NCBI RefSeq assembly: GCF_000971195.1
Contig: NZ_BBLZ01000001.1
Span: 186,001-250,000 of the forward strand
Origin: Demequina soli
GTDB taxonomy: Bacteria; Actinomycetota; Actinomycetes; Actinomycetales; Demequinaceae
Direction: 5' to 3'
DNA: 64,000 bases
The notes beneath the pieces were generated by a model. The model searched no databases. It was not told the origin of the DNA and was given only the letters and a program-made list of their open reading frames with translations. The position numbers and the translations under genes are program-made. Of the stretch, positions 1-63,582 are shown in pieces. Within the stretch, counting starts at the first letter, position 1, and each line of letters opens with the position of its first letter.

Positions 1-1307
1 TTGATGCCGTACTCGGAGGACGGGTCGAGGCTCGCGAGCCACTCCTCGATCGGCACCTCGCGCACGTTGAGCGTGATGCCGATCTCGGCGAGGTCCTGCG
101 CGAGGGCCTGCGCCGCGGTGCCCAGCTGGGGGCCGGTGTTGGGCGTCAGCAGCTCGGCCTCGAAGCCGTCCGGCACGGACGACGCGGCGAGCGCGGCCTT
201 CGCGGCCTCGAGGTCGTAGTCCCACTGCGGGATGCCGGCGAGCATCTCGCGGGCCTCGTCGGGGCTGTAGACCGAGCCGAGCGACTCGGGCGTCATGATC
301 GCGGTCGCGGCCTCGCCGTGGCCCTTGAGGATCGTCGACACGTAGGCGTCACGGTTGACGGCGTGCGCGATGGCCTCGCGCACCTTCGCGTCGTCGAACG
401 GCGCGACGCCGGTGTTGAAGTACAGGCCGACGTAGGAGAGGTCGTTCACGTACTCGACGCGCATGCTGTCGAGCGACTCCCACTGCTCCGCCTGGGAGAA
501 CGGCACGTTGAACGCGACGTCGACGTCGCCGGACTGCGCGGCCAGCAGGCGCGTGGACTCGTCCGAGACGAAGTCCATGCGGATCTCCTTGACCTTGGGC
601 AGGTCGCCCCACCACGTGTCGACCCGCTCGAAGGTCACGTGCGAGTCCGGCACGAACTCCGTGACCTTGTACGGCCCCGTGCCGAGCAGCAGCGAGTCGG
701 AGGTGCCGACGTCGCCGTCGTGGGCCTCCCAGAACGCCTTGGAGGTGATGAACGCGGCGCCCGCGGTGCTCATGTTGCCCGCGAACGCGGCGTCGGGCTG
801 GGTCAGCGTGATGGTGACCTCGTTCTCCCCGGTCGCCTCCACGGAGTCGATGTTCGTCATGTAGTACGCGAGGCCCGGCGAGGCCGTCTCGTCGCGCGCC
901 TGGTCGAGCGAGAACACCACGTCCTCGGCGGTCACCGGCGTGCCGTCCTGGAACTCGGCGTCGTCGCGCAGCTCGTAGACGTAGGTGACGTCGTCGGTCT
1001 GCTCCCAGCTCGCCGCGAGCGCCGGCTGCAGCGCGCCGGTCGAGTCGACCGACACGAGTCCCTCCTGCGCCACGGACGCGACGTAGTAGTTGAGGATGCC
1101 GGACTCGGCCCCCACGTAGAGGCTCGACAGCGAGCCGGGCAGGGCGACGGTGATCGAGTCGATCTCCTGGCCGGTGTCCGCGCCGACCACGGCGCTCGCG
1201 CGGGGCGTGGGTTCCTCGTCGGACGATGCGGTGCAGCCGGCGAGCGCCAACGCGCCCGCCACGGTGACCGCCGCCGTGCGGGCGACGGTGCCGGACGTGA
1301 GTGCCAT
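1..1307 (-). CDS. ABC transporter substrate-binding lipoprotein, SBP family 5 (3' end outside window)
   Basis: This is a periplasmic-type binding protein of the peptide/nickel (SBP_bac_5) family, anchored as a lipoprotein outside the membrane; it would deliver a peptide or similar ligand to an ABC permease presumably encoded left of the window. The N-terminus has a short positive start, a hydrophobic stretch and a lipobox ending Leu-Ala-Gly-Cys at about residue 25. The body shows family features: 'DDAEFQDGTPVTAEDVVFSL', 'GTGPYKVTEF' and 'FNTGVAPFDDAKVREAIAHAVNRD'. The ATG at 1305-1307 has AGGAGAAC just upstream. 435 residues are present. The upstream LysR frame runs into this gene without a stop codon. 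Confidence 0.9.
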   Translation of the reverse strand, partial: MALTSGTVARTAAVTVAGALALAGCTASSDEEPTPRASAVVGADTGQEIDSITVALPGSLSSLYVGAESGILNYYVASVAQEGLVSVDSTGALQPALAASWEQTDDVTYVYELRDDAEFQDGTPVTAEDVVFSLDQARDETASPGLAYYMTNIDSVEATGENEVTITLTQPDAAFAGNMSTAGAAFITSKAFWEAHDGDVGTSDSLLLGTGPYKVTEFVPDSHVTFERVDTWWGDLPKVKEIRMDFVSDESTRLLAAQSGDVDVAFNVPFSQAEQWESLDSMRVEYVNDLSYVGLYFNTGVAPFDDAKVREAIAHAVNRDAYVSTILKGHGEAATAIMTPESLGSVYSPDEAREMLAGIPQWDYDLEAAKAALAASSVPDGFEAELLTPNTGPQLGTAAQALAQDLAEIGITLNVREVPIEEWLASLDPSSEYGI

Positions 1308-2445: not shown

Positions 2446-3246
2446 ATGGGTCGCGTGACCCTTCCCGCCTCGCACGACGCCTGGCTCGCCGCGCGCGACG
2501 CCGCCGCCTTCGCGCCGCACGGGCTGGCCGCGCTCGCGCGCACGGCGTGGCTCTCCGACACCCCGATGGAGGTGCCGGGCACCCCCGGCGCTTGGCACCT
2601 CGATGCGGGGGTCGCGACCAACGGCGACCTCCGGCTCGCCCCCGGCGACGAGGCCCCACACGGCGAGGTGCTCCTGCGCGCATTCGCCCGCGACGGCGCG
2701 GTCGCCCTGCGCGTGCTCGACCCCGAGCGCCCGGCGCGCGAGGGACTCGCGGCGATCGAGCGCTGGCCCGTCGACCCCGACCTCGTCCGGCCCGGCCGCC
2801 TCGACCCGATGCCCTCCGCCACGACCCCCACCGTCGCGATCGACGGCCACCGAGGGTCCACCCGCTACGACGGCGCGGTCGCCTTCGAGGTCGACGGCAC
2901 CGCCCTCACGCTGCTGGTCCACCGCGAGGGCGACCAGCTGTTCGCGGCATTCGCCGATGCGACCGCGGCCGACGAGTCCTACGCGTTCCGCATGATCCGC
3001 CTGGCGGCGCCCGGGCCCGACGGCGTCGTCATCGTCGACCTCAACCGGGCCTACCTGCCTCCCAGCCGCTTCTCGCCGCACTTCGTGTGCGTGACGCCGC
3101 CCGCGACCAACCGCTGGGCCGTGCCGGTGCGCGGCGGCGAGCGACGCATCGTCCCGCGCGACGCGCGTCAGAACAGCGGCGCCGCGGTCCCCGCCTCGAC
3201 CTCGGGCACGCCCGCGGCGCGCACGGGACCCACCTTGTCGAGGTAG
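2446..3246 (+). CDS. DUF1684 domain protein
   Basis: The protein has 266 residues. The C-terminal half carries the DUF1684 signature: 'VVIVDLNRAYLPPSRFSPHF' followed by 'NRWAVPVRGGERRI'. The N-terminus 'HDAWLAARDAAAFAPHGLAA' also matches the family opening. Members are uncharacterised cytosolic proteins. The ATG at 2446 was chosen; a GTG at 2455 (Val4) is possible. After the family core the frame continues for about 30 residues, overlapping the convergent tdk 3' end by 79 bases; this tail is probably not functionally constrained. Confidence 0.8.
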   Translation: MGRVTLPASHDAWLAARDAAAFAPHGLAALARTAWLSDTPMEVPGTPGAWHLDAGVATNGDLRLAPGDEAPHGEVLLRAFARDGAVALRVLDPERPAREGLAAIERWPVDPDLVRPGRLDPMPSATTPTVAIDGHRGSTRYDGAVAFEVDGTALTLLVHREGDQLFAAFADATAADESYAFRMIRLAAPGPDGVVIVDLNRAYLPPSRFSPHFVCVTPPATNRWAVPVRGGERRIVPRDARQNSGAAVPASTSGTPAARTGPTLSR

Positions 3247-3800
3247 CAGCGCCCGCACAGCGACTCGTAGTCGGCCTGCTGGCCGTCGATGGCGACCTGC
3301 TCGCCGTGGCTGACGAATACGCCCCCGATGACGCGGCCGTTGAAGATCGCCTTCGACCCGCAGCGGCAGATGGTCTTGAGCTCCTCGATCGCGTGCGCGA
3401 TCTCGAGCAGCCGCAGCGACCCCGGGAACGAGTGCGTCATGAAGTCCCCGCGCAGCCCGTAGCAGAGCACCGGCACGCCGTGGCGGACCGCGACGACGAA
3501 CGCCTCGTCGACCTGCGCGGGTGTGAGGAACTGGGCCTCGTCGACGAACACCGCGTCGATCTGGTCGATCGGACGATGCGCGACGAGCGCCTCGTACAGC
3601 GACGCCTCCGCGTCGAGCAGCACGTCGACCGCGCGCTCGACGCCGAGCCGCGACGACACCGAGGTGCCGGCCTTCGTGTCGACGCCCGGCTTGACGATGA
3701 CGGGATGCTGGTCCCGCTCCTCGTAGTTGTAGGCCGCGGTGAGCAGCAGCGCCGACTTGGACGAGTTCATCGCCCCGTAGCGGAAGTACAGTTTCGCCAC
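3168..3800 (-). CDS. tdk: Thymidine kinase
   Basis: This is a class II thymidine kinase (dT + ATP to dTMP + ADP; pyrimidine salvage, cytosol) of 210 residues. It starts at a GTG preceded by an AAGGGG-type ribosome site; family proteins begin with the same 'AKLYFRYGAMNS' sequence. The P-loop is GAMNSSKS, with Ser in place of the second Gly. The Walker-B/lasso region is 'IDAVFVDEAQFLTPAQV'. Two Cys pairs (CRC near residue 146, CGRC near 185) form the structural zinc site. The longer ORF upstream of the GTG is not needed. It converges with the DUF1684 gene. Confidence 0.93.
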   Translation of the reverse strand: MAKLYFRYGAMNSSKSALLLTAAYNYEERDQHPVIVKPGVDTKAGTSVSSRLGVERAVDVLLDAEASLYEALVAHRPIDQIDAVFVDEAQFLTPAQVDEAFVVAVRHGVPVLCYGLRGDFMTHSFPGSLRLLEIAHAIEELKTICRCGSKAIFNGRVIGGVFVSHGEQVAIDGQQADYESLCGRCYLDKVGPVRAAGVPEVEAGTAAPLF

Positions 3801-4020
3801 CGCGGCCCCTTTCCCCGGCGGACGCCCACGCCCGCTCGTGCGGAACACGATACTGGCGCACGGCCTCCGCACGGGACGATGCGACAGTTCGTCTGGATGT
3901 CACCCGGAGGTCGGACGCCGTTCACCTGGGGATGGTGGAGTGGCGCCCCGCAACCGTGCCATGCTCATAGGACTCACCACGAGCAGTCGGCAACGGTGCC
4001 GACGACCAGAAGGAGCCCGC

Positions 4021-4360: not shown

Positions 4361-5785
4361 ATGTCCGCCACCCCGGCATCCGGCGCATCGTCCTCGCCCG
4401 TCGCGAGCAGCACCCAGGTCACGGTGCTGTGGATCGCGATCCTGGGCAGCTTCGTCGCGTTCCTGGACGGCAGCATCGTCACCGTCGCGCTGCCGGCGAT
4501 CGCCCGCGACCTCGGCGGCGGCATCGCGCTGCAGCAGTGGGTGACGGACGCGTACCTCATCACGCTGGGCTCGCTCATCCTGGTGGCCGGCAGCCTGTCC
4601 GACCTGTACGGGCGCCTGCGCGTCCTCACGATCGGGCTGATCGGCTTCGGCGCCATGTCGCTCGTGATCGCGCTCGCACCGACGGGCGGCGTGCTCATCG
4701 GCGCGCGCCTGCTCCAGGGCGTCGCCGGCGCGCTGCTGGTCCCGTCGAGCCTCGCGCTCATCATGTCGACGTTCCGCGGGCCGGCCCAGGCGAAGGCCAT
4801 CGGCACGTGGACGGGCGCGACGACGGTCGCGTTCGTGGTGGGCCCGCTGCTCGGCGGCGTGCTGACCGACTACGCGTCGTGGCGGTGGGCGTTCGGCATC
4901 AACGTCGTCCCGATCGCGGTGACCCTCGTGCTCCTGGCCCGGGTCAAGGCGGCGGGCACGCGCGACGTGCGGCGCGAGGGCGCGCGGGTCGACTACGCGA
5001 GCGCGGTGCTGTGCGCCGTCGGGCTCGGCGGCGTCGTCTACGCGCTCGTCGAGCAGCCGCGGCTCGGGTGGTCCGAGCCGGCGGTCGCGATCGGCGCGAT
5101 CGTCGGGGTGCTGGCGCTCGTCGGGTTCTTCTGGCGGCAGGCCCGCGCCGCCGACCCGATGCTGCCCCTGTCGCTGTTCACGGCGCGCAACTTCGCGTGG
5201 GGCAACCTCACCACGTGGTTCGCGTACGGCGGGCTGGCGCTCAACGGCTTCATCGTGAGCGTGTACCTCCAGCAGGGCGCGGGGCTGAGCGCGACCGCGG
5301 CGGGCTTCGCGGGGCTGCCCATCACCGCGCTCGTGATCCTCGGCAGCACGCGCACGGGCGCCTGGGGCGCGCGCTTCGGACCGCGGATCTTCATGACGGT
5401 GGGGCCGTTGACGATGGGCGTGGGCTCCTTCATGCTCCTCGCCGTGTCCGAGGACTTCACCTACTGGACTCAGGCGCTGCCGGGCATCGTGGTGTTCGGG
5501 ATCGGGCTCACCCTCATGGTGCCGCCGCTGACCTCGGCGATCCTGGGCGCGATCGAGGTCGCCCGGTCGGGCATCGCGAGCGCCGTCAACAACGCCGTCG
5601 CGCGCATCGCGGGCCTCGTGGCGGTGGCGCTCATCGGCACGATCGCGGGCGGCCGGCTCGACCTCGCCGGGTTCCACCGCGCGACCGTGGTCACGGGCGT
5701 CTTCATGATGCTCGCGGGCGTCGTCTCGTGGCTGGGCATCAGGAACGATGCGGTGGCCGAGGAGCCCGCGGACGCGCCGTCCTAG
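4361..5785 (+). CDS. MFS multidrug exporter, DHA2 (EmrB/QacA) type
   Basis: A 474-residue membrane protein with about 14 hydrophobic segments. The first segment 'SFVAFLDGSIVTVALPAIAR' and motif A 'GSLSDLYGRLRVL' are typical of proton-driven drug/H+ antiporters of the DHA2 branch; motif C is in 'GVAGALLVPSSLALIMSTF'. Proton-coupled export of a drug or metabolite is inferred; the substrate is unknown. It follows the DUF2316 gene closely and converges with the next minus-strand operon. Confidence 0.9.
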   Translation: MSATPASGASSSPVASSTQVTVLWIAILGSFVAFLDGSIVTVALPAIARDLGGGIALQQWVTDAYLITLGSLILVAGSLSDLYGRLRVLTIGLIGFGAMSLVIALAPTGGVLIGARLLQGVAGALLVPSSLALIMSTFRGPAQAKAIGTWTGATTVAFVVGPLLGGVLTDYASWRWAFGINVVPIAVTLVLLARVKAAGTRDVRREGARVDYASAVLCAVGLGGVVYALVEQPRLGWSEPAVAIGAIVGVLALVGFFWRQARAADPMLPLSLFTARNFAWGNLTTWFAYGGLALNGFIVSVYLQQGAGLSATAAGFAGLPITALVILGSTRTGAWGARFGPRIFMTVGPLTMGVGSFMLLAVSEDFTYWTQALPGIVVFGIGLTLMVPPLTSAILGAIEVARSGIASAVNNAVARIAGLVAVALIGTIAGGRLDLAGFHRATVVTGVFMMLAGVVSWLGIRNDAVAEEPADAPS

Positions 5786-6154: not shown

Positions 6155-6654
6155 GCGCGTCCTCCGAGGTCGTAGGTCCACACGTTGAGCGTCATGGGCA
6201 CGCCGCGGTACTCGTCCTCGAGCTCGCCGCGGAACGCGAAGCCGACCGTCCGGCACAGCGCGTTCGACGCGACGTTGTCGACGTTGGGGCAGGCCATGAG
6301 GACGGGCAGGGTCCCGCGAGCGCGCGCGTCCTCGATCACGAGGCGCACGCCCGCGGTCGCGGCGCCCCGGCGCTGGAACTCGGGCAGCACCATCCAGCCG
6401 GTCTCGAGGCACGGCGCACCGTCCCACTCCGACTCCCACCAGCCGATCGAGCCCACGGCGCCCGGCGCATCGTCCCTCCGGATGGTGAACATGCTCGGGC
6501 GGCCGGCGTCCCAACCGCGCACGTACTGCTCGTGGCGGCGCGCGACGCGCGCGGGGGTCTCGGGTCCGGCGAGGTGCTCCATCATCTCGGGCGCGTTCGC
6601 GGCGACGAGCACATCGAGGTCGGCGTCCGTCCAGCGGCGCAGGCGGTACCCCAC
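6151..6654 (-). CDS. GNAT-family N-acetyltransferase, RimJ/RimL-like
   Basis: 167 residues. The acetyl-CoA site is at 'VLPEFQRRGAATAGVRLVIE', the Q-x-x-G-x-A motif A of GNAT enzymes. 'YRLRRWTDADLDVLVAANAP' at the start and 'NVDNVASNALCRTVGFAFRG' near the end resemble RimJ/RimL-type protein acetyltransferases. The substrate is unknown. The GTG start overlaps the previous stop by one base (TAGTG), indicating coupling with the RraB-like gene. Confidence 0.85.
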   Translation of the reverse strand: MGYRLRRWTDADLDVLVAANAPEMMEHLAGPETPARVARRHEQYVRGWDAGRPSMFTIRRDDAPGAVGSIGWWESEWDGAPCLETGWMVLPEFQRRGAATAGVRLVIEDARARGTLPVLMACPNVDNVASNALCRTVGFAFRGELEDEYRGVPMTLNVWTYDLGGRA

Positions 6655-7043: not shown

Positions 7044-7101
7044 GGGGCCACCGTATCGGGGCCGGGTCCCGGCCCGGGACGATGCGCCGCGCACCGGCCG
7101 C

Positions 7102-8410: not shown

Positions 8411-8866
8411 ATGGCTGACATGAACCTCTCGCTGACCGACGTCCTCGACGCCATCGACGGCCCCGACGACGACGCCTTCGCCACCATCATCGCCTCGGCC
8501 CTCGACGTCGACGCGTTCGCGACCTACCTGGCCTTCCAGGAGATCGTCGACAGCTACGACCACGTGGGCGGCCCGTGCGAGCACGCCTTCATGAGCGTCG
8601 ACCCCGCGACCGGCCGCATCGCGGTGGTCGACTGGGCGCTCGACGTCGCGGTCGGCACGCGCGCCGGGCTCGGCGACGCCGAGGGGGCGCGCGTCCTCGC
8701 GCGTCGCTTCCTGTCCCTGCCGGAGTTCGCGGCGCGCGTCGACGCCGAGCTCGAGCGGCTCGCGGCCGCGCTGGTCGCCTCGCACGCGGACGATGCGGCG
8801 GCCGCCGACCAGGCGCGCGTGCTCAAGGCGCACGCACCCGTGCTCGGGCCCGCGCCGCAGCCCTGA
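8411..8866 (+). CDS. CotH-like C-terminal fragment (truncated homologue)
   Basis: 151 residues. '[20 protein letters not shown]' followed by '[17 protein letters not shown]' resembles the last part of CotH-kinase-family proteins, where the next lines of the fold hold a Trp-Asp-x-Asn; here it reads Trp-Ala-Leu-Asp. Family proteins usually have 350 or more residues, so the kinase N-lobe is absent. The start is uncertain (ATG 8411 or 8420; weak ribosome site). It may be a decayed gene or a small stand-alone protein. Confidence 0.5.
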
Positions 8867-8945
8867 CGCACCCGTCCGCCACCCGACCCACGCATCGTCC
8901 CCCCTGCTAGGTTCGGAAGCACCGGCAGGAAGGCGCGCGCAGACC

Positions 8946-53113: not shown

Positions 53114-53198
53114 TGGAGGACCTTTCAGAAACGTAGGGGACTGAAGAACAGGGGGCGGTCGGAGAGCCACCGGGCGGGGCACGCCTGGCGACCATGGG

Positions 53199-54264: not shown

Positions 54265-54305
54265 AACGGAGAACGTGCGTCCGCTTGCCTGCCTAGGATG
54301 AACCC

Positions 54306-54980
54306 ATGAGCACCTCGGCCTCACCGCAGCACCGCCCCCTTCGCGCCGACGCCGAACGCAACCGCCGGCGCCTCCTCCGCGCGGCCCGAGAGGTGTTCGC
54401 GGCGCGCGGCCTGGACGTCGCACTCGACGACGTCGCCCGCCACGCCGGGGTTGGCGTCGGCACCGTCTACCGACGATTCGCGAACCGCGAGGAGCTCGTC
54501 GAGGCGGTCCTCGACGAAGGCGTCCGGCAAGTCGCCGAGATCGCCAAGGACGCACTCACCGACGACGACCCCTGGGAAGCCTTCGAGCGCTTCTTCCTGG
54601 AGGCCACCGCAATGCTCGCGGAGGACCGCGGGCTGCGCGAGATCCTGCTGCTGGGCGGACACGGCACCGGCGCCGCACTGGAGACGGCGCAGGCGCTGCT
54701 CACACCGAGAGTTGACGCCCTCATCGAGCGCGCGCAACGCTCCGGACAGCTGCGCGACGACCTCGAGCCCATCGACTTCCCGATGATCCAGCTCATGCTC
54801 GGCGCCGCATCGGAGCGGAGCCGGGACGTCGAGCCCGGCCAATGGCGGCGCTACGCCGGCCTGCTGCTCGACGGCCTGCGCACACGTCGGGACGGCCCGA
54901 CCGCGCTCGGCACCCCCGCGCTCACCGGCAACGAGTTCTACCGCAGCATGACGGGCCACGCCAACGAGTCCGCGCGCTAG
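54306..54980 (+). CDS. TetR-family regulator
   Basis: 224 residues. 'RNRRRLLRAAREVFAARGLD', 'ALDDVARHAGVGVGTVYRRF', 'ANREELVEAVLDEGVRQVAE', then the TetR_C-type domain. Represses the divergent quinone reductase/MMPL operon by inference. Last gene of the accessory cluster before the tRNA-Pro element. Confidence 0.9.
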   Translation: MSTSASPQHRPLRADAERNRRRLLRAAREVFAARGLDVALDDVARHAGVGVGTVYRRFANREELVEAVLDEGVRQVAEIAKDALTDDDPWEAFERFFLEATAMLAEDRGLREILLLGGHGTGAALETAQALLTPRVDALIERAQRSGQLRDDLEPIDFPMIQLMLGAASERSRDVEPGQWRRYAGLLLDGLRTRRDGPTALGTPALTGNEFYRSMTGHANESAR

Positions 54981-55187
54981 CTGAACTCGCTCACGAGCCC
55001 GGAGACAGCGCCGAGTCCCGATGGACCTACTGGAGCCTTGCAACTCGGCGGCATCGCGCCCGAGCCGACCTCAGGGCCTCGAGCCCGCCCCGAGCGCCGG
55101 AGTGCACACCCGAAGCGTCCGTGACCCACCCGCGCTATCGCCGCTCCGCAGTACCGCAGCGAACTCGGGCCTCAGCGAGGCCAAAGT

Positions 55188-55300
55188 GATGAGTAAACGA
55201 TGACCTGGTCACTTCTCACATCCGATGAAGGTCGTGGAAACCTGCGAGTTACCAGGACTTTCACCGTCGGGGTGACAGGATTTGAACCTGCGACCCTCTG
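55188..55300. repeat. Left attachment repeat (attL/attR copy)
   Basis: 113 bases; differs from 60257-60369 at about seven positions, all in the first ~55 bases; the last ~57 bases, including the tRNA 3' part, are identical. The preceding 54981-55187 shows no gene. Confidence 0.9.
55267..55300 (-). pseudogene. tRNA-Pro 3' fragment
   Basis: Equivalent to the acceptor 3' strand, T arm, variable region and part of the anticodon stem of the intact tRNA-Pro at 60336. A scar of site-specific integration, not a functional tRNA. Confidence 0.9.
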
Positions 55301-55421
55301 TAGGATCCGGCCGGCTTCCGGACCTTCACGCTTGTCCCGGGAGCTCGCGTGTTCCCTGGTGATGCGAGGGACGCTGGCGGTTCGCTCATTCCGACTGTAC
55401 CCGGATGATTCCGGTTGGTCA

Positions 55422-55449
55422 CGGCTGAATCTGATGGGTTCCTGATGGG
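55422..55449. repeat. 28-bp direct repeat, right copy
   Basis: Identical to 36149-36176. It lies 121 bases inside the tRNA-Pro element. The internal tandem GATGGG-TTCCT-GATGGG resembles the short direct repeats bound by integrase arms. Confidence 0.85.
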
Positions 55450-55479
55450 TTCACACTCCGGCGAGCTCGCCTGTCGAAC

Positions 55480-56379
55480 TCAGTCCCAGCGCCGCGCGCT
55501 GGGGTCCCAGCGGTGCACAGCCTGTGATCCAAGGACGGGGTCGGCGAACTCGGAGACTGCCGCGAGCACCTCACTGAAGGTCTCAGGAAGGTCGTCGAGC
55601 CTGCCTGTGCGCCGTCGCCATGCGGCCCACTTCGCCTGTGCGAGTGCCGGCATTCCGGCGAGCGCGGGCAGGAGCGGCTTGAGCTCGACGCCACGGTAGC
55701 GCGCGACGGTCTCGAACGACGCTCGAAGCACGCTCGCGCCCACGTCCCTGGAGCGCGTGAGCGTGTAGACGTCGGCGAAGTCTCGCCACCGGGTGTTCGC
55801 CTCGCCGCGGTCGAGCATGGTGATGATCTTCTCGGCGAGCACCATCGTCAGCGGGTAGCCGAGCAGCCTGATCCCCTCTTGCCCGAGCGCGAGCAGCCGG
55901 GGCACCTCCACGACAGTGGGGGCGGGCCCGATCGGATCGCCGAAGTTGACGTCGATGCCGATGGTCACCCGAGAGCGGCCGAGATGTCCGACGAGCCGGA
56001 CGCGGACTCCTGCGTACTCATCTTCGTCACGGATAGCGGTCGCCCCCACGCTCTCGACGTCGAAGACGACGCCGTCCGCCATGTCGATCGATGCGATCGC
56101 ACGGACTCTCTCGGCGACGTCGTCCGCATCGTTCGCAAGACCAGTCGCCTGCAGGTCGATGTCTTTGGTCGGCCGTCGAAGTGCGAACGCCGCGAGGAGC
56201 ACACCGCCCTTGAGCACGAAGTCATCGCGATGCCCGCTCGCGGCGATCCGGGCGAGGAACGCCTCGAGGACGTACAGCGTCTGCAGCTCCTGGACGTCCC
56301 CGCCGGTCGCCCGCGCGAGACCACGGATGGCGAGGACCGCGTCGCCGTCGGGCGTGCCGTGTCGAGGGTTCGGGCTCAC
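55480..56379 (-). CDS. abiEii: AbiEii nucleotidyltransferase toxin (type IV TA / abortive infection)
   Basis: 299 residues. Nucleotidyltransferase site 'FVLKGGVLLAAFALRRPTKD' followed by Ile-Asp-Leu (G-G...R-x-T-x-D-x-D) and the family block 'VLAEKIITMLDRGEANTRWR' then Asp-Phe-Ala-Asp-Val-Tyr. AbiEii toxins are GTP-binding and block growth on phage infection. The GTG start overlaps the abiEi stop by 4 bases, so translation is coupled. This frame can be extended to 56481 but the coupling favours 56379. Confidence 0.88.
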   Translation of the reverse strand: MSPNPRHGTPDGDAVLAIRGLARATGGDVQELQTLYVLEAFLARIAASGHRDDFVLKGGVLLAAFALRRPTKDIDLQATGLANDADDVAERVRAIASIDMADGVVFDVESVGATAIRDEDEYAGVRVRLVGHLGRSRVTIGIDVNFGDPIGPAPTVVEVPRLLALGQEGIRLLGYPLTMVLAEKIITMLDRGEANTRWRDFADVYTLTRSRDVGASVLRASFETVARYRGVELKPLLPALAGMPALAQAKWAAWRRRTGRLDDLPETFSEVLAAVSEFADPVLGSQAVHRWDPSARRWD

Positions 56380-56957
56380 AGCAGGATCTCCAATGCAGTC
56401 CGGATCGCGGGCTGCGCCTTGGGGAATGATGCGGCCATCTCGAGGAGCGCAGACGGGCTGCTCTCGCGAGTGCGGAGCCATCGCTTCAGCGCCTCGATCG
56501 CAAGGTCGCTGCCCCAGTCGTGTCGCAGTCGGAACAGGTCGATGATCGTCCGCTCCGCGGAGTACAGGCCGATAGACAGGTCGCCGGGCAGCTGGTGCTC
56601 ACCACGCCCGATGTCGAACGTCGCTGCATCGAATCGGTGCCACGCGATCGGAGCCGTCGGCGCCTCGATCGACTGGATCCCGCGCGGGATCGCGATGTGC
56701 GAGCGAGTGGGGATCTCGTCGGTCAGCTCGTGCAAGGCGAGCGCCGAGAGCAGGCAGAGCGTCGCTTGCGGTCGCTTGGCTGCGATCGCGATCCATGCTG
56801 CCGTCGTGTCGTCGACCTCACCGGCTCGCAGGAACAACCCCGGCGCGATGCGCTCATACTCCCCCGCGCCCAGCAAGGCCCGGAGCCGATGCCTGGTCAG
56901 GCCATGGTCCGCGAGCGACTCGTAGCGGAGCATCGTGGGATCTGCAGATGGAGCCAT
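56376..56957 (-). CDS. abiEi: AbiEi antitoxin/repressor
   Basis: 193 residues. N-terminal winged helix 'HGLTRHRLRALLGAGEYERI', 'APGLFLRAGEVDDTTAAWIA'; middle 'KRPQATLCLLSALALHELTD'; C-terminal AbiEi_1-type domain. AbiEi antitoxins neutralise AbiEii without direct contact and repress their own promoter through inverted repeats; such a repeat is present at 56981-57025. Confidence 0.88.
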   Translation of the reverse strand: MAPSADPTMLRYESLADHGLTRHRLRALLGAGEYERIAPGLFLRAGEVDDTTAAWIAIAAKRPQATLCLLSALALHELTDEIPTRSHIAIPRGIQSIEAPTAPIAWHRFDAATFDIGRGEHQLPGDLSIGLYSAERTIIDLFRLRHDWGSDLAIEALKRWLRTRESSPSALLEMAASFPKAQPAIRTALEILL

Positions 56958-56980
56958 GCCCGTGTCCTCCCGGTCACTCC

Positions 56981-57025
56981 GACGGAAACATGAACAGATA
57001 AAGAATACCTGTTACTGTTTCCGTC
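56981..57025 (-). promoter_or_regulatory. abiE promoter with perfect inverted repeat
   Basis: GACGGAAACA (56981-56990) and AACAG (56993-56997) are mirrored by CTGTT (57009-57013) and TGTTTCCGTC (57016-57025), symmetric about 57003. The centre is AT-rich and contains a -10-like TATTCT on the minus strand. Matches the operator plan expected for AbiEi autoregulation. Confidence 0.75.
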
Positions 57026-57396
57026 GATCAAGAGTGTGCTCGCCAGGACCCCTGAACGGCCGGCGCCGCTGCTTCGACGCGCAACTGACCGAGATACCAC
57101 TCGCGGCGATGCAGGCGACCACGACCGCGCATCATCGGCACCATCACGCGAAGATCTCCACGAAACCCGGAGCGCAACACTTCGCGGGTCGCACGTCTCG
57201 CAACACGCACCACCAGGGGCACAACGCCGAGGAAGACAACCGTTACGCCACCCGACAGGGCTGGACCCACGGCACCAGGCCGACGAGACTCCACTGGTCT
57301 CGGTTCATCCGAAATTACTCGGCGCCGCAACCCGTCCGCAATCGCGCCGTTCTATGGTGACGGTGCCACCCAATCAGGCGAAGAGAAGGAATCGGG
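57026..57396. other. Intergenic stretch without a supported gene
   Basis: Open frames here are His/Arg/Pro-rich and look non-coding. The last ~100 bases are presumably the promoter and leader of the secreted protein gene; no clear -35/-10 pair was identified. Confidence 0.5.
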
Positions 57397-57777
57397 ATGA
57401 ACCGCCCACTGTCGGCCATCAGCGCATTTACGCTCGGCATCTTCTTGCTCATCGCAGGCGGGTCAACCGCAGGCGCAACCACTCATACCCGCGCATCCGC
57501 CACGCCGGCCAGCGCCCAGGTTGCTGCCGCGTCCTGGGTGGAGTGGGACGGCAACCACATCACCACCGCGGCAAAATGTGCAGCCCGTTTGACCTACATC
57601 GCCAACACTTACAACATCCAACGAAGCGCGCTGTGGTGCGAGAAAGTCGCCGTGCCCATCTGCCCACCCCAGTACTACTGGGTCCTGATGATCAACACCA
57701 GCGCTGCAGCATTCTCCGTCCCCGAGACGGTCACTCGCGAGGCTGCATCATCGACACTGGTCGCCGCCTGCGCGTGA
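57397..57777 (+). CDS. Small secreted protein, unknown
   Basis: 126 residues with a signal peptide: charged start, hydrophobic 'ISAFTLGIFLLIAGGSTAGA', probable cleavage after Ala about residue 27. The mature part has five Cys and aromatic residues ('WVEWDGNHITTAAKCAARLT', 'SALWCEKVAVPICPPQYYWV'). AAGGAA precedes the ATG. Codon use is less GC-biased than in neighbours. No family recognised; its position beside AbiE suggests a cargo gene. Confidence 0.7.
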   Translation: MNRPLSAISAFTLGIFLLIAGGSTAGATTHTRASATPASAQVAAASWVEWDGNHITTAAKCAARLTYIANTYNIQRSALWCEKVAVPICPPQYYWVLMINTSAAAFSVPETVTREAASSTLVAACA

Positions 57778-57782
57778 GCAGG

Positions 57783-58298
57783 TCACGGAGCCCCTGGTTG
57801 CCCCTTGTCGTAGACGAGGGGCAACCAGCTCAGTGCATCGGACAGCCTCACTGGCTCGCGGGCATACCTCACTTGCAGTCCAACGGCACCTTCGACCTCA
57901 CATCCGAAGGTTGGCTGATGAGCTCCGTCCCATTGAGGCTTGCGGTGACGTCGCGAGCGTTCGACGACGTCCTCCACCACATGGTCGTCGCTTCCGGGTC
58001 TTGGGCAGATGATGCACTCCACGTCGAACGGCTGACGCCAGTCCCGCGGGCGACGAATGAGCGGCAAGCGCGCGGCCAGGTGCGCCGGACTCTTCGCACC
58101 GAAGAACGACCTAGGCACCGGGACCCCGTCGAACGATCCCTCTTGGAAGAGGGGTCGGCGCTCGAGATCGATGTCATCGAGGACGGGCAAGGGCGGTTGC
58201 ACCGCGTTGTTCTCGCGCACGATGTGCGACGCGTCAAGGCCGCGCTCGAGCATCGAGACGGCATACCCCTCGAAGTCATCCCGAGCCGGCGCACGCAA
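57783..58298 (-). CDS. Hypothetical frame, one of two competing strands
   Basis: 171 residues from a TTG (ATG at 58253 possible): 'DDFEGYAVSMLERGLDASHI', 'FGAKSPAHLAARLPLIRRPR', 'FDVECIICPRPGSDDHVVED'. Composition and GC at third positions look more like a protein than the opposing frame, but the frame stays open upstream to about 58535 without a good start and its 3' end lies in a strong hairpin. Could be a 5'-truncated gene. Mutually exclusive with 57918-58493. Confidence 0.35.
   Translation of the reverse strand: MRAPARDDFEGYAVSMLERGLDASHIVRENNAVQPPLPVLDDIDLERRPLFQEGSFDGVPVPRSFFGAKSPAHLAARLPLIRRPRDWRQPFDVECIICPRPGSDDHVVEDVVERSRRHRKPQWDGAHQPTFGCEVEGAVGLQVRYAREPVRLSDALSWLPLVYDKGQPGAP
57794..57828 (+). 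terminator. Terminator hairpin after the secreted-protein gene
   Basis: 12-bp perfect stem CTGGTTGCCCCT with AGGGGCAACCAG and an 11-base loop, 16 bases past the stop at 57777. Confidence 0.75.
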
Positions 58299-58493
58299 GC
58301 CGAGCTCGATTCGATCCTCGAAGAGATTCTCGCCGACGAGCCTCTCGTGCGCGGATTCGGATTCAAGGCCAGACCACGCGAACAGGTGCGCATCGCGTTG
58401 ACAGTCCTTCGAGTGACGCCGCGGCTCGAGCGCAGACTCGCCGCCGTGCCGGCCGACGTGCTCGACATCACTAGCCTCGTCACACCTCGTTGA
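57918..58493 (+). CDS. Hypothetical frame, alternative to the minus-strand ORF
   Basis: 191 residues from an ATG with GAAGG seven bases upstream. The C-terminal 110 residues ('SALEIDVIEDGQGRLHRVVL', 'QAELDSILEEILADEPLVRG') read like a soluble protein; the middle is Arg-rich and suspicious. A TGACCCG/CGGGTCA hairpin starts at its stop codon. No family recognised. Confidence 0.35.
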   Translation: MSSVPLRLAVTSRAFDDVLHHMVVASGSWADDALHVERLTPVPRATNERQARGQVRRTLRTEERPRHRDPVERSLLEEGSALEIDVIEDGQGRLHRVVLAHDVRRVKAALEHRDGIPLEVIPSRRTQAELDSILEEILADEPLVRGFGFKARPREQVRIALTVLRVTPRLERRLAAVPADVLDITSLVTPR

Positions 58494-58604
58494 CCCGCGG
58501 CACGTGACACGGGTCAGGCTCCCTTGGACTTATTCTTGGATTGATCCCCGCCCTGCACCTCCCGCACAAAGCGGTGAACGAGCGCCGTGCGGCAGTCTTG
58601 GCCC

Positions 58605-59114
58605 ATGAACATGGTCCGAGAAGACTGGCTGCTAATCGCAGCGTTCGGCGCGCCGTTGACCAGTGCAATCATCTTCGGGGTGTCAATCTGGCTGAACATG
58701 CGCGCGACACGGCGAGCCGAAGCCGCTCGACTCGCAGCTGCGGTTCGTGCGAGCGCCTTGGCTGCCCTGAAGGCCGGCACCGTGTCACACACGTTGGGTC
58801 TGTTCAGCGGCTGGCCATACGAGTTCGTTCTTCGGACTAGCGAACTTGCCAGTTGGATTGACATCAAGGGTGAGAACCCGGTGAGCAAGTGGCTTGTGGA
58901 AGGGGTTCCGCACGTCGTGCAGGAGTATGACGCGGAGGCCCGAGGGCGCAGAGTTGGCGAGTACGTCGCGATGCTGATCCTTCTCGAAGACCGCAAGGGC
59001 CGGCCGATGCGGCGCGCCCGCCGGGTCGCCGCGGCCAAGCCCTGGCCCGACGAACTCCCGGACCTGCCGCGATGGCGGAAGCTAGTGCAGTCGATGCGGG
59101 CCACCAGCGACTGA
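58605..59114 (+). CDS. Hypothetical membrane-anchored protein
   Basis: 169 residues with one N-terminal membrane anchor ('WLLIAAFGAPLTSAIIFGVS') followed by a basic Arg/Ala helix and a soluble domain ('FSGWPYEFVLRTSELASWID'). Codon use is mixed. Start uncertain (ATG 58605 or 58611, or GTG 58587). Located between the unknown ORF and the integrase; unknown cargo. Confidence 0.6.
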   Translation: MNMVREDWLLIAAFGAPLTSAIIFGVSIWLNMRATRRAEAARLAAAVRASALAALKAGTVSHTLGLFSGWPYEFVLRTSELASWIDIKGENPVSKWLVEGVPHVVQEYDAEARGRRVGEYVAMLILLEDRKGRPMRRARRVAAAKPWPDELPDLPRWRKLVQSMRATSD

Positions 59115-59229
59115 ACCGATGCGCCTCGGGCATGGCCAAGACTCGGAAACATTGACCTGGCCCGCCTGCGACGAGTGCTTCTGGTTGGCGGTCGGCTATG
59201 ACGAGGCGGCGCCGATGAGGCGGCAGGGA

Positions 59230-60219
59230 TCATAGGCCCAGGTGTCGGCTCGACGTGGTCTGCATCGACGCGATGGGTCGGATGTAGGCGTTCACCAGCA
59301 TCGCGAGGTCGCGGTGGCGGGTCTGTGCAGCGATGCGGTCGAGTGGCACGCCGGCCATCGCGGCGGCCGTGGCGTGGCCGGCGCGTAGGGAGTGGGCGGT
59401 GATGCGGTCGCCGGTGAAGCCGACGGCGTGGGCGCGGGTCTTGACGATCCGCACGACCGAGGCGGCGTTGATCGGCTCGCTCGTGACGGTGCCGTTCGCG
59501 CGGACTCGGGTGAAGACGCTCCCGGCGCTGCGGGGGCGGACGCGCAGCCATGTGCCCAGTGCTTCGACTGGATCCGATTCGGCGTGACGGCCGCGGGCGA
59601 TGGCGATGGCCTGGCCCGCGCCGTGGGGGTCGCCTTTTGACCGGCGCACGGTGATGAGAAGTCCACCCTCTGCGGGCGCTATGTCCCCCACTTCCAGCGC
59701 GGCGAGCTCACATCGGCGCATGGCCGAGGCGAAGCCGAGCAGGATGATCGCGGCGTCGCGCTTGCCGATGGCGGTGGTGCGGTCGATGGCAGCGAGGATC
59801 TCGCGGATGTCCTCGACGAACAGGGGTCGTGCGCGGCGGCGGGGTGCGACGCCGAGGATGCGGCGCAGGCCGCGCCGGACGCGTGTCACGAGCTCGCTGT
59901 CGGTGGGGTCGTCCAGGCCGGCGACTCGGTGCCGGTGGGCGATGGCGGCAAGGGTGCAGGTGACCATCCCCATCGTCAGGCCCCGTTCGGCCTGCGTGGT
60001 GATGTAGGCGCAGACAATCTCGGGTGCCGCGGGCAACGCCGTGAAGCCGCGCTGGTCACACCAGGTCTCGAATCCTCGCCACGCCGAGGCGTAGGTGGTG
60101 CGCGTCGAGGGCGCGTGATGGGCCGCAACCGCTGCGTCGATCCGTGCCAAGTCGGCCGGAGTCAGCCCTGCGGGGAGGGATCGCGGGAAGTCTTCGTCTG
60201 CTGTCAGCCATGGAGTCAT
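59230..60219 (-). CDS. Tyrosine-type site-specific integrase
   Basis: 329 residues. N-terminal SAM-like core-binding domain ('STRTTYASAWRGFETWCDQR'), then catalytic residues in order: Arg168 ('SAMRRCELAALEVG'), Lys195 ('TVRRSKGDP'), His276-x-x-Arg279 ('ITAHSLRAGHATA'), His302 ('QTRHRDLA') and Tyr312 ('VNAYIRP'). Its start is 38 bases inside the tRNA-proximal repeat. Full set of residues, so it may be active. Confidence 0.93.
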   Translation of the reverse strand: MTPWLTADEDFPRSLPAGLTPADLARIDAAVAAHHAPSTRTTYASAWRGFETWCDQRGFTALPAAPEIVCAYITTQAERGLTMGMVTCTLAAIAHRHRVAGLDDPTDSELVTRVRRGLRRILGVAPRRRARPLFVEDIREILAAIDRTTAIGKRDAAIILLGFASAMRRCELAALEVGDIAPAEGGLLITVRRSKGDPHGAGQAIAIARGRHAESDPVEALGTWLRVRPRSAGSVFTRVRANGTVTSEPINAASVVRIVKTRAHAVGFTGDRITAHSLRAGHATAAAMAGVPLDRIAAQTRHRDLAMLVNAYIRPIASMQTTSSRHLGL

Positions 60220-60256
60220 GCAGGCATGCCAGCAGGGCGACAGCAGTCGTCACAAA

Positions 60257-60369
60257 GATGAGTAAAAGATGACTTGGTCACTTTTCACGTCCAATGAAGC
60301 TCGTGGAAACCCGCGAGTTACCAGGACTTTCACCGTCGGGGTGACAGGATTTGAACCTGCGACCCTCTG
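60257..60369. repeat. Right attachment repeat overlapping tRNA-Pro
   Basis: 113-bp copy that runs from near the integrase start into the anticodon arm of the intact tRNA-Pro; partner of 55188-55300. Confidence 0.9.
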
Positions 60370-60409
60370 CTCCCAAAGCAGATGCGCTACCAAGCTGCGC
60401 TACACCCCG
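60336..60409 (-). tRNA. tRNA-Pro (anticodon TGG)
   Basis: 74 bases on the minus strand. Acceptor CGGGGTG/CACCCCG, anticodon stem around loop TTTGGGA (anticodon TGG, reads CCA), T arm GCAGG-TTCAAAT-CCTGT, discriminator A; CCA is not encoded. Its 3' half is the integration target of the AbiE element and is fully restored. Confidence 0.97.
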
Positions 60410-60498
60410 TGTCACCCCACGCGGGGGCGATGTTCCTCGCTCGCGCGAGGCTCCGCTACTCTAGTACGCGCCGAGCAGGCGTCATCGCCGTCGGCTTC

Positions 60499-60569
60499 GC
60501 GGGTGTAGCTCAATGGTAGAGCCTCAGTCTTCCAAACTGATCACGCGGGTTCGATTCCCGTCACCCGCT
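60499..60569 (+). tRNA. tRNA-Gly (anticodon TCC)
   Basis: 71 bases. Acceptor GCGGGTG/CACCCGC, anticodon stem TCAGT/ACTGA around loop CTTCCAA (anticodon TCC), T arm GCGGG-TTCGATT-CCCGT. Followed closely by a terminator. Confidence 0.97.
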
Positions 60570-60577
60570 CTCGCAGC

Positions 60578-60607
60578 ACGAAGGCCCCTCCCCGGAGGGG
60601 CCTTCGT
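60578..60607 (+). terminator. Terminator after tRNA-Gly
   Basis: ACGAAGGCCCCTCC (60578-60591) pairs with GGAGGGGCCTTCGT (60594-60607); 9 bases after the tRNA. Confidence 0.85.
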
Positions 60608-60708
60608 CGTCGATGCGAACGTGCGCGCTGCGAGGCGCTCACTGCCCGATTCTCGCGATTCTGAGGACTGGGCACCTCAGGGGGCGCGACGCTGGCCGCG
60701 CGAAGGGA

Positions 60709-63582
60709 TCACAGCGCCGCCCACGCCTCGCGGCGCACCATCACCCGCTCGAGCGCCGCGAGGAAACGCTCCACGGCGGCGGCGTCGATGGTGAGCGGCG
60801 GCTTGATCTTGAGCACGTTCTTGTGATCGCCGGTCGGCTGCACGATGACGCCCTCCAGCAGCAGCGCCTCGCAGATCTCGCGCGCCGCCACGGCGTCCGG
60901 CGCGTCGGGTCCGCCCGCGACCACCTCGAGGCCCAGGTACAGGCCCAGCCCGTGAACCTCGCCGAGGGCGGCGAAGCGCGCGCAGGCCGCGCGCAGGCCG
61001 TCCGCGAGCAGCGCGCCCACCACCCGGGCGTTCTCCTGCAGCGCGTCCTCGTCGAGCACACGCAGCACGGTGGACCCGACCACACAGCTGACGGGGCTTC
61101 CGCCCGCCGACGAGAAGAACGACCCCTCCACCGCGAACCGTTCCGCGATCTCGCGCGTCGTGATGACCGCCCCCAGCGGGTGACCGTTTCCCATGGCCTT
61201 GGCGACCGCGATGACGTCGGGCACCACGCCCTGCTGCTCGAAGCCCCAGAAGTGCTCGCCGAGGCGCCCGTAGCTCACCTGGACCTCGTCCGACACGACG
61301 ATGCCGCCGCGCGAGCGCACCGCCTCCCACACGCCCGCGAGGTACCCGTCGGGCAGCAGGATGCCGCCGCCGTTGCCGAAGATCGGCTCCGCCACGAACC
61401 CGGCGAGCGACACCCCGGCCGCGTCGAGCTCGCCCAGGCGCCACAGCGCATCGTTCAGGTACCGCCGCACCTCCGCACCTCGGTGTCGGCCGCGATACGT
61501 GTTGGGCGCGTCGAGCAGGTGCACCCAGTCGGGGCGCGACGCCAGCGCGCCGGGGTTGTCCCCCAGCGAGGTCGAGATCGCATCGGCGCCGACGGTCCAT
61601 CCGTGGTACGCCTCGGTGAGCGCGAGGATGTCGGTCCGTCCGGTCGCGGCGCGCGCGACGCGGATCGCGAGGTCCACGGCCTCCGAGCCCGAGTTCACCA
61701 GCAGCACGGTGTCGAGCCCCTCGGGCGCGCGGGCGGCGAGCTCCTCCGAGAAGTCCACGACGGCCTCGTAGTGGAAGCGCGAGTTGGTGTTGAGGCGGCG
61801 CAGCTGGCGGTCGACGGCGTCCGCGATGCGCGGCTCGCCGTGACCGAGGATCGCGACGTTGTTGACCATGTCGAGGTAGCCGCGCCCGTCGGTGTCGATG
61901 AGGTGGTGGCGCCAGCCGCGCTCGATCCGCGGCGGCGCGGCGTAGTAGTGCTCCTGCACGGCGGCGAACGACGCGTCGCGGGCCGCGAGCAGGGCACCTG
62001 GCGTGCGGGGGGACGATGCGCCGGTCGCCGGGACGCGTCCCAGCAGCGGGGCGGGGTCCGGGCACAGCGCGGCCCAGGCGTCGTCGTGCCCGGGCATCAC
62101 GCGTGCTGGCGGCCCGAGGTGGGGCACCACGGACTGCCACACGAGCACGACGGCGAGCCCGTCGTCCGCCGCTGCCGCGCGCGCGACGGGCTGACCGGCG
62201 ACCACGCGGGCGCCCGCGGCCACGAGAGGCTCGACGCCGCGCACGTGCACCGCGGGACCGTAGTCGACGCGGAGCGCGAGCGCGTCGGCCTCCGCGAGGG
62301 TCACGGTCCCGCCCGCCGGGCTCACGATCGTGGTGCCGGACGCGACGGCGACCGCCCGGCCCGCCAGCCGCGAGCGCGGGGCGGCGGCGAGCGCGGCCTC
62401 CGGCAGCAGGAGGTGCTCGCCGTACCGCGTGACCGCGCCGGCGCCGTCGGCGCGGGCCTCCGCGAGCGCGGAGCGGAGCGACGCGGGGTCGAGCCACGCG
62501 CCCCCGTCGTGGCGGGCCGACTTCACGGACAGGTCGGCCTCGGGCGCGTCGGCGAGCCCGGCGATCATGGGGGCGTAGGTCCGCGATGCGGCGTCGGGCA
62601 CGCGGCCGAGCGCGTGGCGCACGAGCAGCTCGGCCTCGTCGAAGCCCAGCGCGGTCGCGCGCTCGAGCATCCGCGCCTCGAGCGGCCGACGCGCCCGCGC
62701 GTAGTCGTTCGAGGGATCCTCCGCGAGCACGCGCTCCCCCGCCGCGGCGAGGACCACGGCGCGCGCCACCACGAGGGGCCACACGGCCACGAGGTCGTCC
62801 TCGTCGAGCGGGGCCGCGCGATCGAAGGCGGCGACGGCGGCGAGCGCGTCGCCGATGGCGTCGCCGTCGTGCTGGAGCAGCGCGCACGCGAGGATCGCGG
62901 CCTCCGCGACGGCCCAGCCTAGCCCCAGGTCGCCGAAGTCGATCAGGCCGGCCACGCGGCACTCGGGGTCGACCACCACGTTGTCGGCGGTGAGGTCGCC
63001 GTGCACCGCCTGGACCCGCAGGCGCGGCGCAACCCCGGCCAGCCGTGCGCCCGCGGATTCGAGCAGTGCGGCGAGGCGCGCATGCTCGTCGGTGCCGAGC
63101 GCGACGGCGGCGGCGTCGAGCACCTCGCGCGCGCGCCGCAGGTCCCACGCGCCGGACGCCAGCCCGGCGTGCGCGAACGACGCGAGAGCGGCCGTCAGCT
63201 CCCCCGCGGTCGCGCCGAGCGCGGCGGGCAGGCCCGCGGGCAGCCGCGCGCCGTGCGGAGGCTCGCCCTCGAGGAAGTCGAGCACGCGGGCATGCGCGCC
63301 GCCGTCGAGGGGCACGATGCGCTCGCCGCCCGTGGTCGCGTGGACGCGCGGGACCGGCAACCCCGCCGCGGCCAGGTGCGCGAGCGCGGCGTCCTGGGCC
63401 TCGAGCGCGGCGCGCGCGATGCCCGGGTGTGACGCCTTGAGCAGGCGGCGCGTCCCGTCGGCGAGCGTGAGCAGGACGTTGCGGTCCTCGTTGGAGCCGA
63501 GGTCGCGGGCGTCGGCGAGGTCGAGGCCCCACTCACGCGCGGCGAGCGCGCGCAGGGCGTCGAGGGTGAGGTCGGCGTTCAT
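60709..63582 (-). CDS. Kinase / M23-like / class-III aminotransferase (phospholyase-type) fusion
   Basis: 957 residues. Residues 1-330: APH-type kinase with 'VQAVHGDLTADNVVVD' (catalytic loop) and 'VAGLIDFGDLGLG' (metal Asp). About 330-500: a peptidase-M23-like beta swivel ('VASGTTIVSPAGGTVTLAEA', 'GARVVAGQPVARAAA'). 510-957: PLP fold-type I, with PLP Lys in 'DVIAVAKAMGNGHPLGAVIT'. Such fusions resemble hydroxylysine kinase joined to phosphohydroxylysine/phosphoethanolamine phospho-lyase: phosphorylate, then eliminate. The exact substrate is unknown. Confidence 0.85.
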   Translation of the reverse strand: MNADLTLDALRALAAREWGLDLADARDLGSNEDRNVLLTLADGTRRLLKASHPGIARAALEAQDAALAHLAAAGLPVPRVHATTGGERIVPLDGGAHARVLDFLEGEPPHGARLPAGLPAALGATAGELTAALASFAHAGLASGAWDLRRAREVLDAAAVALGTDEHARLAALLESAGARLAGVAPRLRVQAVHGDLTADNVVVDPECRVAGLIDFGDLGLGWAVAEAAILACALLQHDGDAIGDALAAVAAFDRAAPLDEDDLVAVWPLVVARAVVLAAAGERVLAEDPSNDYARARRPLEARMLERATALGFDEAELLVRHALGRVPDAASRTYAPMIAGLADAPEADLSVKSARHDGGAWLDPASLRSALAEARADGAGAVTRYGEHLLLPEAALAAAPRSRLAGRAVAVASGTTIVSPAGGTVTLAEADALALRVDYGPAVHVRGVEPLVAAGARVVAGQPVARAAAADDGLAVVLVWQSVVPHLGPPARVMPGHDDAWAALCPDPAPLLGRVPATGASSPRTPGALLAARDASFAAVQEHYYAAPPRIERGWRHHLIDTDGRGYLDMVNNVAILGHGEPRIADAVDRQLRRLNTNSRFHYEAVVDFSEELAARAPEGLDTVLLVNSGSEAVDLAIRVARAATGRTDILALTEAYHGWTVGADAISTSLGDNPGALASRPDWVHLLDAPNTYRGRHRGAEVRRYLNDALWRLGELDAAGVSLAGFVAEPIFGNGGGILLPDGYLAGVWEAVRSRGGIVVSDEVQVSYGRLGEHFWGFEQQGVVPDVIAVAKAMGNGHPLGAVITTREIAERFAVEGSFFSSAGGSPVSCVVGSTVLRVLDEDALQENARVVGALLADGLRAACARFAALGEVHGLGLYLGLEVVAGGPDAPDAVAAREICEALLLEGVIVQPTGDHKNVLKIKPPLTIDAAAVERFLAALERVMVRREAWAAL

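Follow-up and report, generated by a model that had tools for sequence, protein, structure and literature searches.

A candidate DNA-uptake word and its dialects in the actinobacterial genus Demequina

The ten-base word GGACGATGCG, which is scattered in both orientations through the genome of Demequina soli, is probably the core of a DNA-uptake sequence of the DUS/USS-like kind and one dialect of a genus-wide set of such words, a reading drawn from genome comparisons to which we give a chance of roughly three in four. As far as the open-access literature shows, it would be the first putative uptake word outside Neisseriaceae and Pasteurellaceae; a search of titles and the starts of abstracts in that literature found no such word in Actinobacteria, and no experimental test of uptake or transformation in Demequina was found there. 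A preliminary description of this DNA had proposed an uptake role, and the count of the word, its lack of polarity, its enrichment between genes, its dialects, the genes for a type IV pilus, ComEA and ComEC, and a word-poor accessory stretch all speak for that proposal, while pairs of the word in terminators proved to be weak evidence and a cognate minor pilin was not found among the pilins compared.

The window, which is the whole 64-kb stretch of DNA analysed (C16:186001-250000 of the D. soli assembly G000, 3,002,692 bases in 16 contigs), holds 25 exact copies of the word, 13 on the plus strand and 12 on the minus strand (Table 1), where the preliminary description had given 24 and was right about the plus copies but one short on the minus strand. 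Its estimate of less than one expected copy agrees with the 0.8-1.0 that we calculate, and the one-mismatch forms, described as over a dozen, number 42 in the window. Exact and one-mismatch forms together come to 67, compared to 22.1 +/- 4.8 in 100 dinucleotide shuffles of the window (largest 33). The whole assembly carries 1475 exact copies (754 forward, 721 reverse), or about 490 per Mb with the two orientations taken together. In the 484 kb of the genome that served as our statistics sample, window included, 227 copies were found versus 6.7 expected under an order-3 Markov model, a 34-fold excess that places the word far from the Markov expectation against which a genome-wide count had been proposed, and GGACGATGCG was the top-ranked 10-mer of this sample, N runs apart. 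Over 464 kb there were 224 copies, while 200 letter-shuffled 10-mers averaged 2.4 and the most frequent of them reached 21. A reversed-word control (3+0 copies in G000) was dropped, since the TAG in the reversed word makes it too lenient, and the Markov expectation and low-count congeners were used in its place. In abundance GGACGATGCG resembles the DUS and USS, words of 9-12 bp that are present hundreds to thousands of times, above expectation.

Table 1. Exact copies of the word and the word-poor stretch in the window; gene and intergenic labels are from our own codon-model gene calls, not from curated annotation.
Feature	Position	Strand	Location or content
GGACGATGCG copy	1221..1230	+	in gene
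GGACGATGCG copy	3145..3154	-	intergenic
GGACGATGCG copy	3571..3580	+	in gene
GGACGATGCG copy	3874..3883	+	intergenic
GGACGATGCG copy	4384..4393	-	in gene
GGACGATGCG copy	6466..6475	-	in gene
GGACGATGCG copy	7077..7086	+	intergenic
GGACGATGCG copy	8788..8797	+	in gene
GGACGATGCG copy	8891..8900	-	intergenic
GGACGATGCG copy	10386..10395	+	intergenic
GGACGATGCG copy	10570..10579	-	in gene
GGACGATGCG copy	14973..14982	-	in gene
GGACGATGCG copy	15881..15890	+	intergenic
GGACGATGCG copy	16390..16399	-	intergenic
GGACGATGCG copy	19258..19267	-	intergenic
GGACGATGCG copy	19525..19534	+	in gene
GGACGATGCG copy	19633..19642	-	intergenic
GGACGATGCG copy	28290..28299	+	intergenic
GGACGATGCG copy	29067..29076	-	in gene
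GGACGATGCG copy	31005..31014	+	intergenic
GGACGATGCG copy	31744..31753	-	in gene
GGACGATGCG copy	33334..33343	+	intergenic
GGACGATGCG copy	34208..34217	+	in gene
GGACGATGCG copy	44027..44036	-	intergenic; sole copy of 27.8 kb word-poor stretch
GGACGATGCG copy	62011..62020	+	in gene
word-poor stretch	36300..62000	.	catabolic/transport-type genes

The copies are spread unevenly, with 23 of the 25 before 34.3 kb and a single one between 34.3 and 62.0 kb. The DNA from 36300 to 62000 looks accessory and is mostly of lower GC and almost without GGACGATGCG; five genes that were looked up there encode a dienelactone hydrolase, an acyl-CoA dehydrogenase, a short-chain dehydrogenase, an AMP-binding ligase and an MMPL protein. 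A 20 kb query (window positions 25-45 kb) was searched against 18 congeners, most of them draft assemblies, with short partial matches left out of the counts. Parts of the word-rich 25-35 kb had long matches in all 18 congeners, whereas, among the matches listed, the word-poor 36.3-41.5 kb had long matches in three (G006, G008 and G019) and the segment 41.7-45 kb in eight (G006, G008, G010, G014, G015, G018, G019 and G042). Matches to 36.3-45 kb were always on contigs of the congeners other than those that carried the 25-35 kb block. Judged by this distribution, 36.3-45 kb of the window is accessory DNA, and the word-poor stretch fits recently gained DNA that has yet to collect the word. Accumulation of GGACGATGCG in the core genome would be consistent with this one 20 kb comparison and also with two trends across 58 bins of 8 kb, in which the count rises with coding typicality (rho 0.34) and with GC (rho 0.55), the latter perhaps partly an effect of composition, since GGACGATGCG is itself 70% GC.

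Related species carry related words, which we treat as dialects A (GGACGATGCG), B (GGCCGATGC) and C (SCCGACGCTG). Across 44 Demequina genomes, GGACGATGCG occurs 711-1564 times in 15, 235 times in G023 and 10-123 times in 28. Words were ranked in 20-40 kb from each of 21 few-copy genomes, G023 included, and in many of these samples a related word came out on top, while some were without a clear word. GGCCGATGC reaches at least 580 copies in 19 genomes, G018 among them, with a maximum of 2018 (1004+1014) in G031; the base that follows it varies, being G in G001, G002 and G016, C in G025 and G031, and T in G005. At its low end are G032, G017 and G003 with 584-718 copies, and these are less sure as B genomes because A genomes other than G018 reach 488; GCCGATGC was among the top words in samples of the same three. 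Word C was counted 925 times (460+465) in G037, 359 in G034, 303 in G026 and 217 in G033, and one genome, G018, carries both A (927) and B (664). Strand use of the related words in sister species is equal. At cut-offs of 200 for A, 580 for B and 200 for C, which were set after the counts were seen, 38 of the 44 genomes could be assigned to a dialect, and G004, G012, G013, G036, G039 and G043 had none of the three words at these cut-offs; five of these six carry ComEC and PilM. G043, in which all three dialect words are scarce, is rich in GGCGGGGTCGG-like words and in G runs, which may represent a further dialect or a repeat of an unrelated kind.

Related Demequina species share their dialect. 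A species tree of 40 genomes was built from aroC, aroB, aroK, aroQ, efp and nusB (G011, G035, G036 and G039 were left out), and on it 13 A genomes, G018 and G023 among them, group in a single clade and G021 and G028 make up a separate pair, while B is found in several clades and C in two places. Dialect and species distance gave rank correlations of 0.41-0.56 in sets of at least 28 genomes. The words thus behave as DUS and USS do in following phylogeny among relatives, with A arising twice and B not confined to one clade.

The word switches dialect at a few homologous coding positions. Word sites of the com and pil regions were projected onto reciprocal-best orthologues, with gap pairs (165 and 277) kept outside the A-site totals. 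Of 1125 pairs at A sites within A genomes, 328 retained the A word and 14 showed the B word; of 995 pairs in which A sites were projected onto B genomes, 40 showed GGCCGATGCx and 3 showed GGACGATGCx, and these 40 pairs trace to 8 entries, or about six or seven positions without duplicates, and reflect shared ancestry. B sites retained their word in 374 of 1547 pairs within B genomes, and in A genomes the contrast was much weaker, 41 of 1398 pairs having the A word and 32 the B word. For sites taken from G021 and G028, 16 of 91 pairs with B genomes showed the B word, and 7 of 78 pairs with the main A clade showed the A word. The switching signal between B and C is weak: GCCGATGC was in register in 11 of 172 C-to-B pairs, from two source sites, and a C-like word was seen in 26 of 352 B-to-C pairs versus 45 of 1398 B-to-A pairs, the T to C change involved being in many cases silent at the protein level.

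The machinery found with uptake sequences elsewhere, a type IV pilus with ComEA and ComEC, is present in Demequina at the level of genes. A ComEC domain and PilM were each detected in 43 of the 44 genomes, the exception being G036, which is 85% complete. In D. soli a pil operon upstream of aroC encodes PilB, PilT, PilC, a PilA-like pilin, minor pilins, PilD and PilM, together with genes in the PilN and PilO positions for which the Pfam match was absent or sub-threshold; aroC and its neighbours were named by length, order and the start of their sequences. ComEA of D. soli has SLBB and helix-hairpin-helix domains, and ComEC has Competence and Lactamase_B domains, so that the search for comEC, comEA and type IV pilus genes proposed earlier finds such genes in this genome. 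A prepilin (N_methyl) gene also lies away from the pil operon in 16 of 18 Demequina (not in G002 and G006). In D. soli this orphan adjoins metE, with a GNAT gene nearby, and similar neighbours, recognised from the starts of the neighbouring proteins, were seen in many, not all, of the 16 loci. Strong profile matches to the orphan pilin were obtained in 30 of the 44 genomes; the 14 without one include the A genomes G006, G014, G023 and G042, and weaker matches in G012, G036 and G039 may be orphan pilins. The predicted model of this protein has a mean pLDDT of 91, and a Foldseek search against the PDB gave no match at E<=0.001. Most A genomes have the residues YVEN in the orphan pilin and some B genomes YVEQ. 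The C-terminal part of the orphan prepilin (L239:2586-3002) is common to the PilA-position pilin of type II operons, and other open frames in many Demequina match the pilin profile in its later part only, at about model positions 23-139 (for example G000:C15:12548-12889).

A minor pilin that co-evolves with dialect, in the manner of ComP or ComN, was not found among the proteins compared. Pairwise distances of 20 proteins (one also as its C-terminal part), each in 12 to 40 genomes, were correlated with dialect given species, with 300 label permutations. No pilin, operon or orphan, tracks dialect (partial r -0.19 to 0.06); the orphan gave 0.00 (n=28, p=0.53), and values for ComEA (0.03) and aroC (-0.04) were similarly close to zero. 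ComEC gave the highest value, 0.37 (p=0.003), but controls were also raised, namely leuS, which lies near ComEC (0.26, p=0.003), aroB (0.17, p=0.01) and holA (0.12, p=0.03), which makes the species tree an imperfect control, and in view of leuS we did not accept ComEC as the dialect reader. The orphan minor pilin, which its location away from the operon and its single-residue differences had made attractive, was likewise rejected as a ComP-like receptor and retained just as a lead, given its zero dialect signal and the 14 genomes that lack a strong match, and the type IV pilus operon was rejected as a simple dialect switch, as each of its two allelic types is found among A as well as B genomes. 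These types, set by the best BLAST match of minor pilins and PilM, have separate minor-pilin and PilM sets, with PilN and PilO cross-matching at about 20-30% or not at all, and they sit in similar neighbourhoods (for example G015 versus its close relatives G010 and G020), a pattern that looks like operon-level exchange.

If GGACGATGCG is an uptake word, the cell surface would capture DNA that carries the word of the species, pilus retraction and ComEC would draw that DNA inside, and recombination would thereby favour word-carrying DNA from kin. The word would then rise wherever the chromosome tolerates it, in intergenic spacers and in D-D-A and A-S-S codon contexts, and recently gained DNA would be left word-poor. 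A shift in recognition specificity would lead to genome-wide replacement of the word and so to dialects, with A and B differing chiefly at position 3. Specificity may reside in some feature that several pilins conserve, or elsewhere than in pilins, because type IV pilus pilins, the orphan included, turn over while the dialect is unchanged.

Demequina, an actinobacterium, is without the outer membrane of Neisseria, and the sequence of the Pasteurellaceae USS is unrelated to the Demequina word. The Demequina word is unrelated in sequence to the Neisseriaceae DUS as well, and its inverted pairs are rare. Uptake specificity is described as known only in the families Neisseriaceae and Pasteurellaceae (PMC12616744). 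In Neisseriaceae, the DUS has dialects, a 10-mer core and, for AT-DUS, about 1900 copies (PMC3630211), and it is read by the minor pilin ComP (PMC6370729, PMC12616744), the tree of which is reported there to be highly congruent with DUS dialects. Shared with that system are a 10-mer core in about a thousand to several thousand copies, a type IV pilus, dialects that follow the core-genome tree, and a genome of two dialects, S. muelleri there and G018 in Demequina; accumulation in the core genome, described for the DUS (PMC3630211), may be a further likeness. The Pasteurellaceae USS is a short word with divergent dialects within the family, as in Demequina, with ComN/PpdA as its predicted receptor and a minor pilin reported to co-evolve with the word (PMC12616744). 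The main difference from what is reported for both families is that no Demequina pilin tested tracks dialect. Among Actinobacteria, Micrococcus luteus undergoes natural transformation by Flp/Tad pili (PMC4322843, PMC8467076); the likeness lies in actinobacterial ComEA and ComEC, which for Demequina means the genes alone, and the difference in the pilus, Flp there and of the PilB/T/C/M type in Demequina, and a text search of both papers for the term 'uptake sequence' gave no hit.

The most serious competitor, which we nonetheless consider unlikely, is a word of the HIP1, nucleoid or methylation type, maintained by a protein that binds or modifies DNA inside the cell and has no part in uptake, with dialects arising as that protein changes. 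HIP1 of cyanobacteria is a very abundant chromosomal word, a palindromic octamer without strand preference, and GGACGATGCG shares its abundance and strand neutrality; high density, strand neutrality and species-dependent variants would all fit such a protein, as would the failure of the expected surface receptor to appear in the pilin comparison. However, GGACGATGCG, which differs from its own reverse complement, is not a palindrome like HIP1, and restriction sites tend to be avoided in genomes, not enriched. Spread by transformation would directly explain the scarcity of the word in the accessory stretch, although newly gained DNA that adapts slowly would show it too.

The anatomy of the word is part of the case for an uptake sequence. 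In the 484 kb sample the inner core ACGATGC tolerates few changes, one-mismatch forms altered within it being mostly near or below expectation, and the edges are more tolerant, with forms altered at positions 1, 2 and 10 mostly enriched, up to 7-fold; the change that leads to dialect B, A to C at position 3, shows 3.2-fold enrichment. Together the 30 one-mismatch forms sum to 272, where about 157 are expected, and outnumber the 227 exact copies, which speaks against the uptake reading. A second alternative is that an uptake specificity shaped this genome and competence has since been lost in the strain; the one-mismatch total, the six congeners without a clear word and the turnover of pilin sets point in this direction. 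The exact word nevertheless exceeds every single one-mismatch form, the commonest of which has 41 copies, and the pil operon, comEA and comEC of D. soli are open frames with their domains, making loss of competence a very improbable account.

Words of the KOPS, AIMS or Chi type, which serve segregation or recombination, are also over-represented and short, but such words need polarity along the replichore, and this makes them a highly implausible explanation here. The three contiguous blocks of 120-184 kb that were inspected (464 kb in total) hold 45/51, 25/20 and 40/43 plus and minus copies, and the strands summed over 15 GGACGATGCG-rich congeners are 8935/8867. Equal strand use, as first described, is therefore upheld genome-wide (754/721) and by block, and the replichore bias for which a check had been suggested is absent from these blocks, which are parts of replichores. 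The inverted pairs in terminators fared less well: 8 close neighbours lie within 60 bp in the 484 kb sample, all of them also within 50 bp, where chance gives 5.5, and while 7 of the 8 are in hairpin order and 7 of the 8 are intergenic, their number is near chance.

The word is enriched between genes. In the 484 kb sample, with our own gene calls, 71 of the 227 copies are intergenic where intergenic sequence makes up 10.8%, which corresponds to 1.35 copies per kb versus 0.36 in coding sequence, a 3.7-fold difference; in the window 13 of 25 are intergenic by the same calls, close to the half that had been stated. The intergenic ratio is 2.8 in the other 13 A genomes, 2.4 in group B1, 2.0 in B4 and 1.3 in G037, and no enrichment of their words was seen in B2 (0.9), B3 (0.8) and the other C genomes (0.9), the ratios of B2 and B3 being blurred by a gene caller that left about a quarter of the sequence uncalled. 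The 156 coding copies comprise 83 read in sense as xDDA, 40 in antisense as xASS, 22 in antisense as RIV and 11 others, and GAT makes up 10.0% of Asp codons in D. soli, which confirms the Asp-Asp-Ala and Ala-Ser-Ser readings and the uncommon codon pointed out before; no position bias along genes was detected. Flanks are weakly constrained: the base directly 5' of the word is G in 73% of intergenic copies, and the third and fourth bases 3' of it are G in 56-70% (484 kb sample). The same GG recurs in the consensus sequences of the remaining 13 A genomes, of B2, B3 and B4, and of C, where it is in register with B, partly at 45-55% in these other groups; B1 has G at the fourth base after the word only. 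Base composition, codon usage or a mobile repeat scattered through the genome has next to no chance of accounting for the word, even with 83 of 156 coding copies read as DDA in one frame, given the 34-fold excess over the Markov model, a count far above those of all 200 shuffled words, the enrichment outside genes, and wider flanks that are not conserved, which argues against a mobile repeat.

Cryobacterium, which belongs to another family than Demequina, has a word of its own, AGCGGATGC, with 954-1460 copies in five of six genomes. The six counts are 1460, 1269, 208, 954, 1092 and 1321, with strands balanced, and 13 genomes of other genera have 23-214. The six Cryobacterium pil loci contain 42 copies versus 1.7 expected, partly via shared ancestry, and another 20 kb of C. 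luteum contains 7. The GATGC common to AGCGGATGC and to Demequina words A and B may be due to common descent or to chance. Among 361 genomes from other families of the order and one from the sister genus, no count of GGACGATGCG above 102 was seen (from a table read by eye), and three genomes of the family genera g2 and g3 have 29, 28 and 4. No clear word emerged from 20 kb of the sister genus, and none that was convincing from Cellulomonas, Actinotalea, Sanguibacter, Kineococcus and other loci.

We put forward, as a tentative and somewhat doubtful extension, that Actinobacteria have uptake with self-recognition, in Demequina and in Cryobacterium with its GATGC-cored word, with at least three dialects inside one genus and a reader other than a co-evolving minor pilin, since exchange of the pilus operon and of the orphan pilin leaves the dialect as it was. 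If true, this would be a third and mechanistically different uptake specificity, and a barrier of sexual isolation that rewrites codons at homologous sites. With 44 species genomes, at least three dialects and the mixed genome G018, Demequina would be a good system in which to study how uptake specificity originates, shifts and isolates species, and the uptake reading predicts natural competence, and thus genetic tools, in both Demequina and Cryobacterium.

Pooled homologous loci yield misleading top words; pooled pil loci of Coriobacteriia gave strong CCCGAACCCG-type words, perhaps a coding repeat. In Cryobacterium luteum (G408:C51, 172-220 kb), several clusters of pilin- and PilC-like genes lie within about 50 kb.
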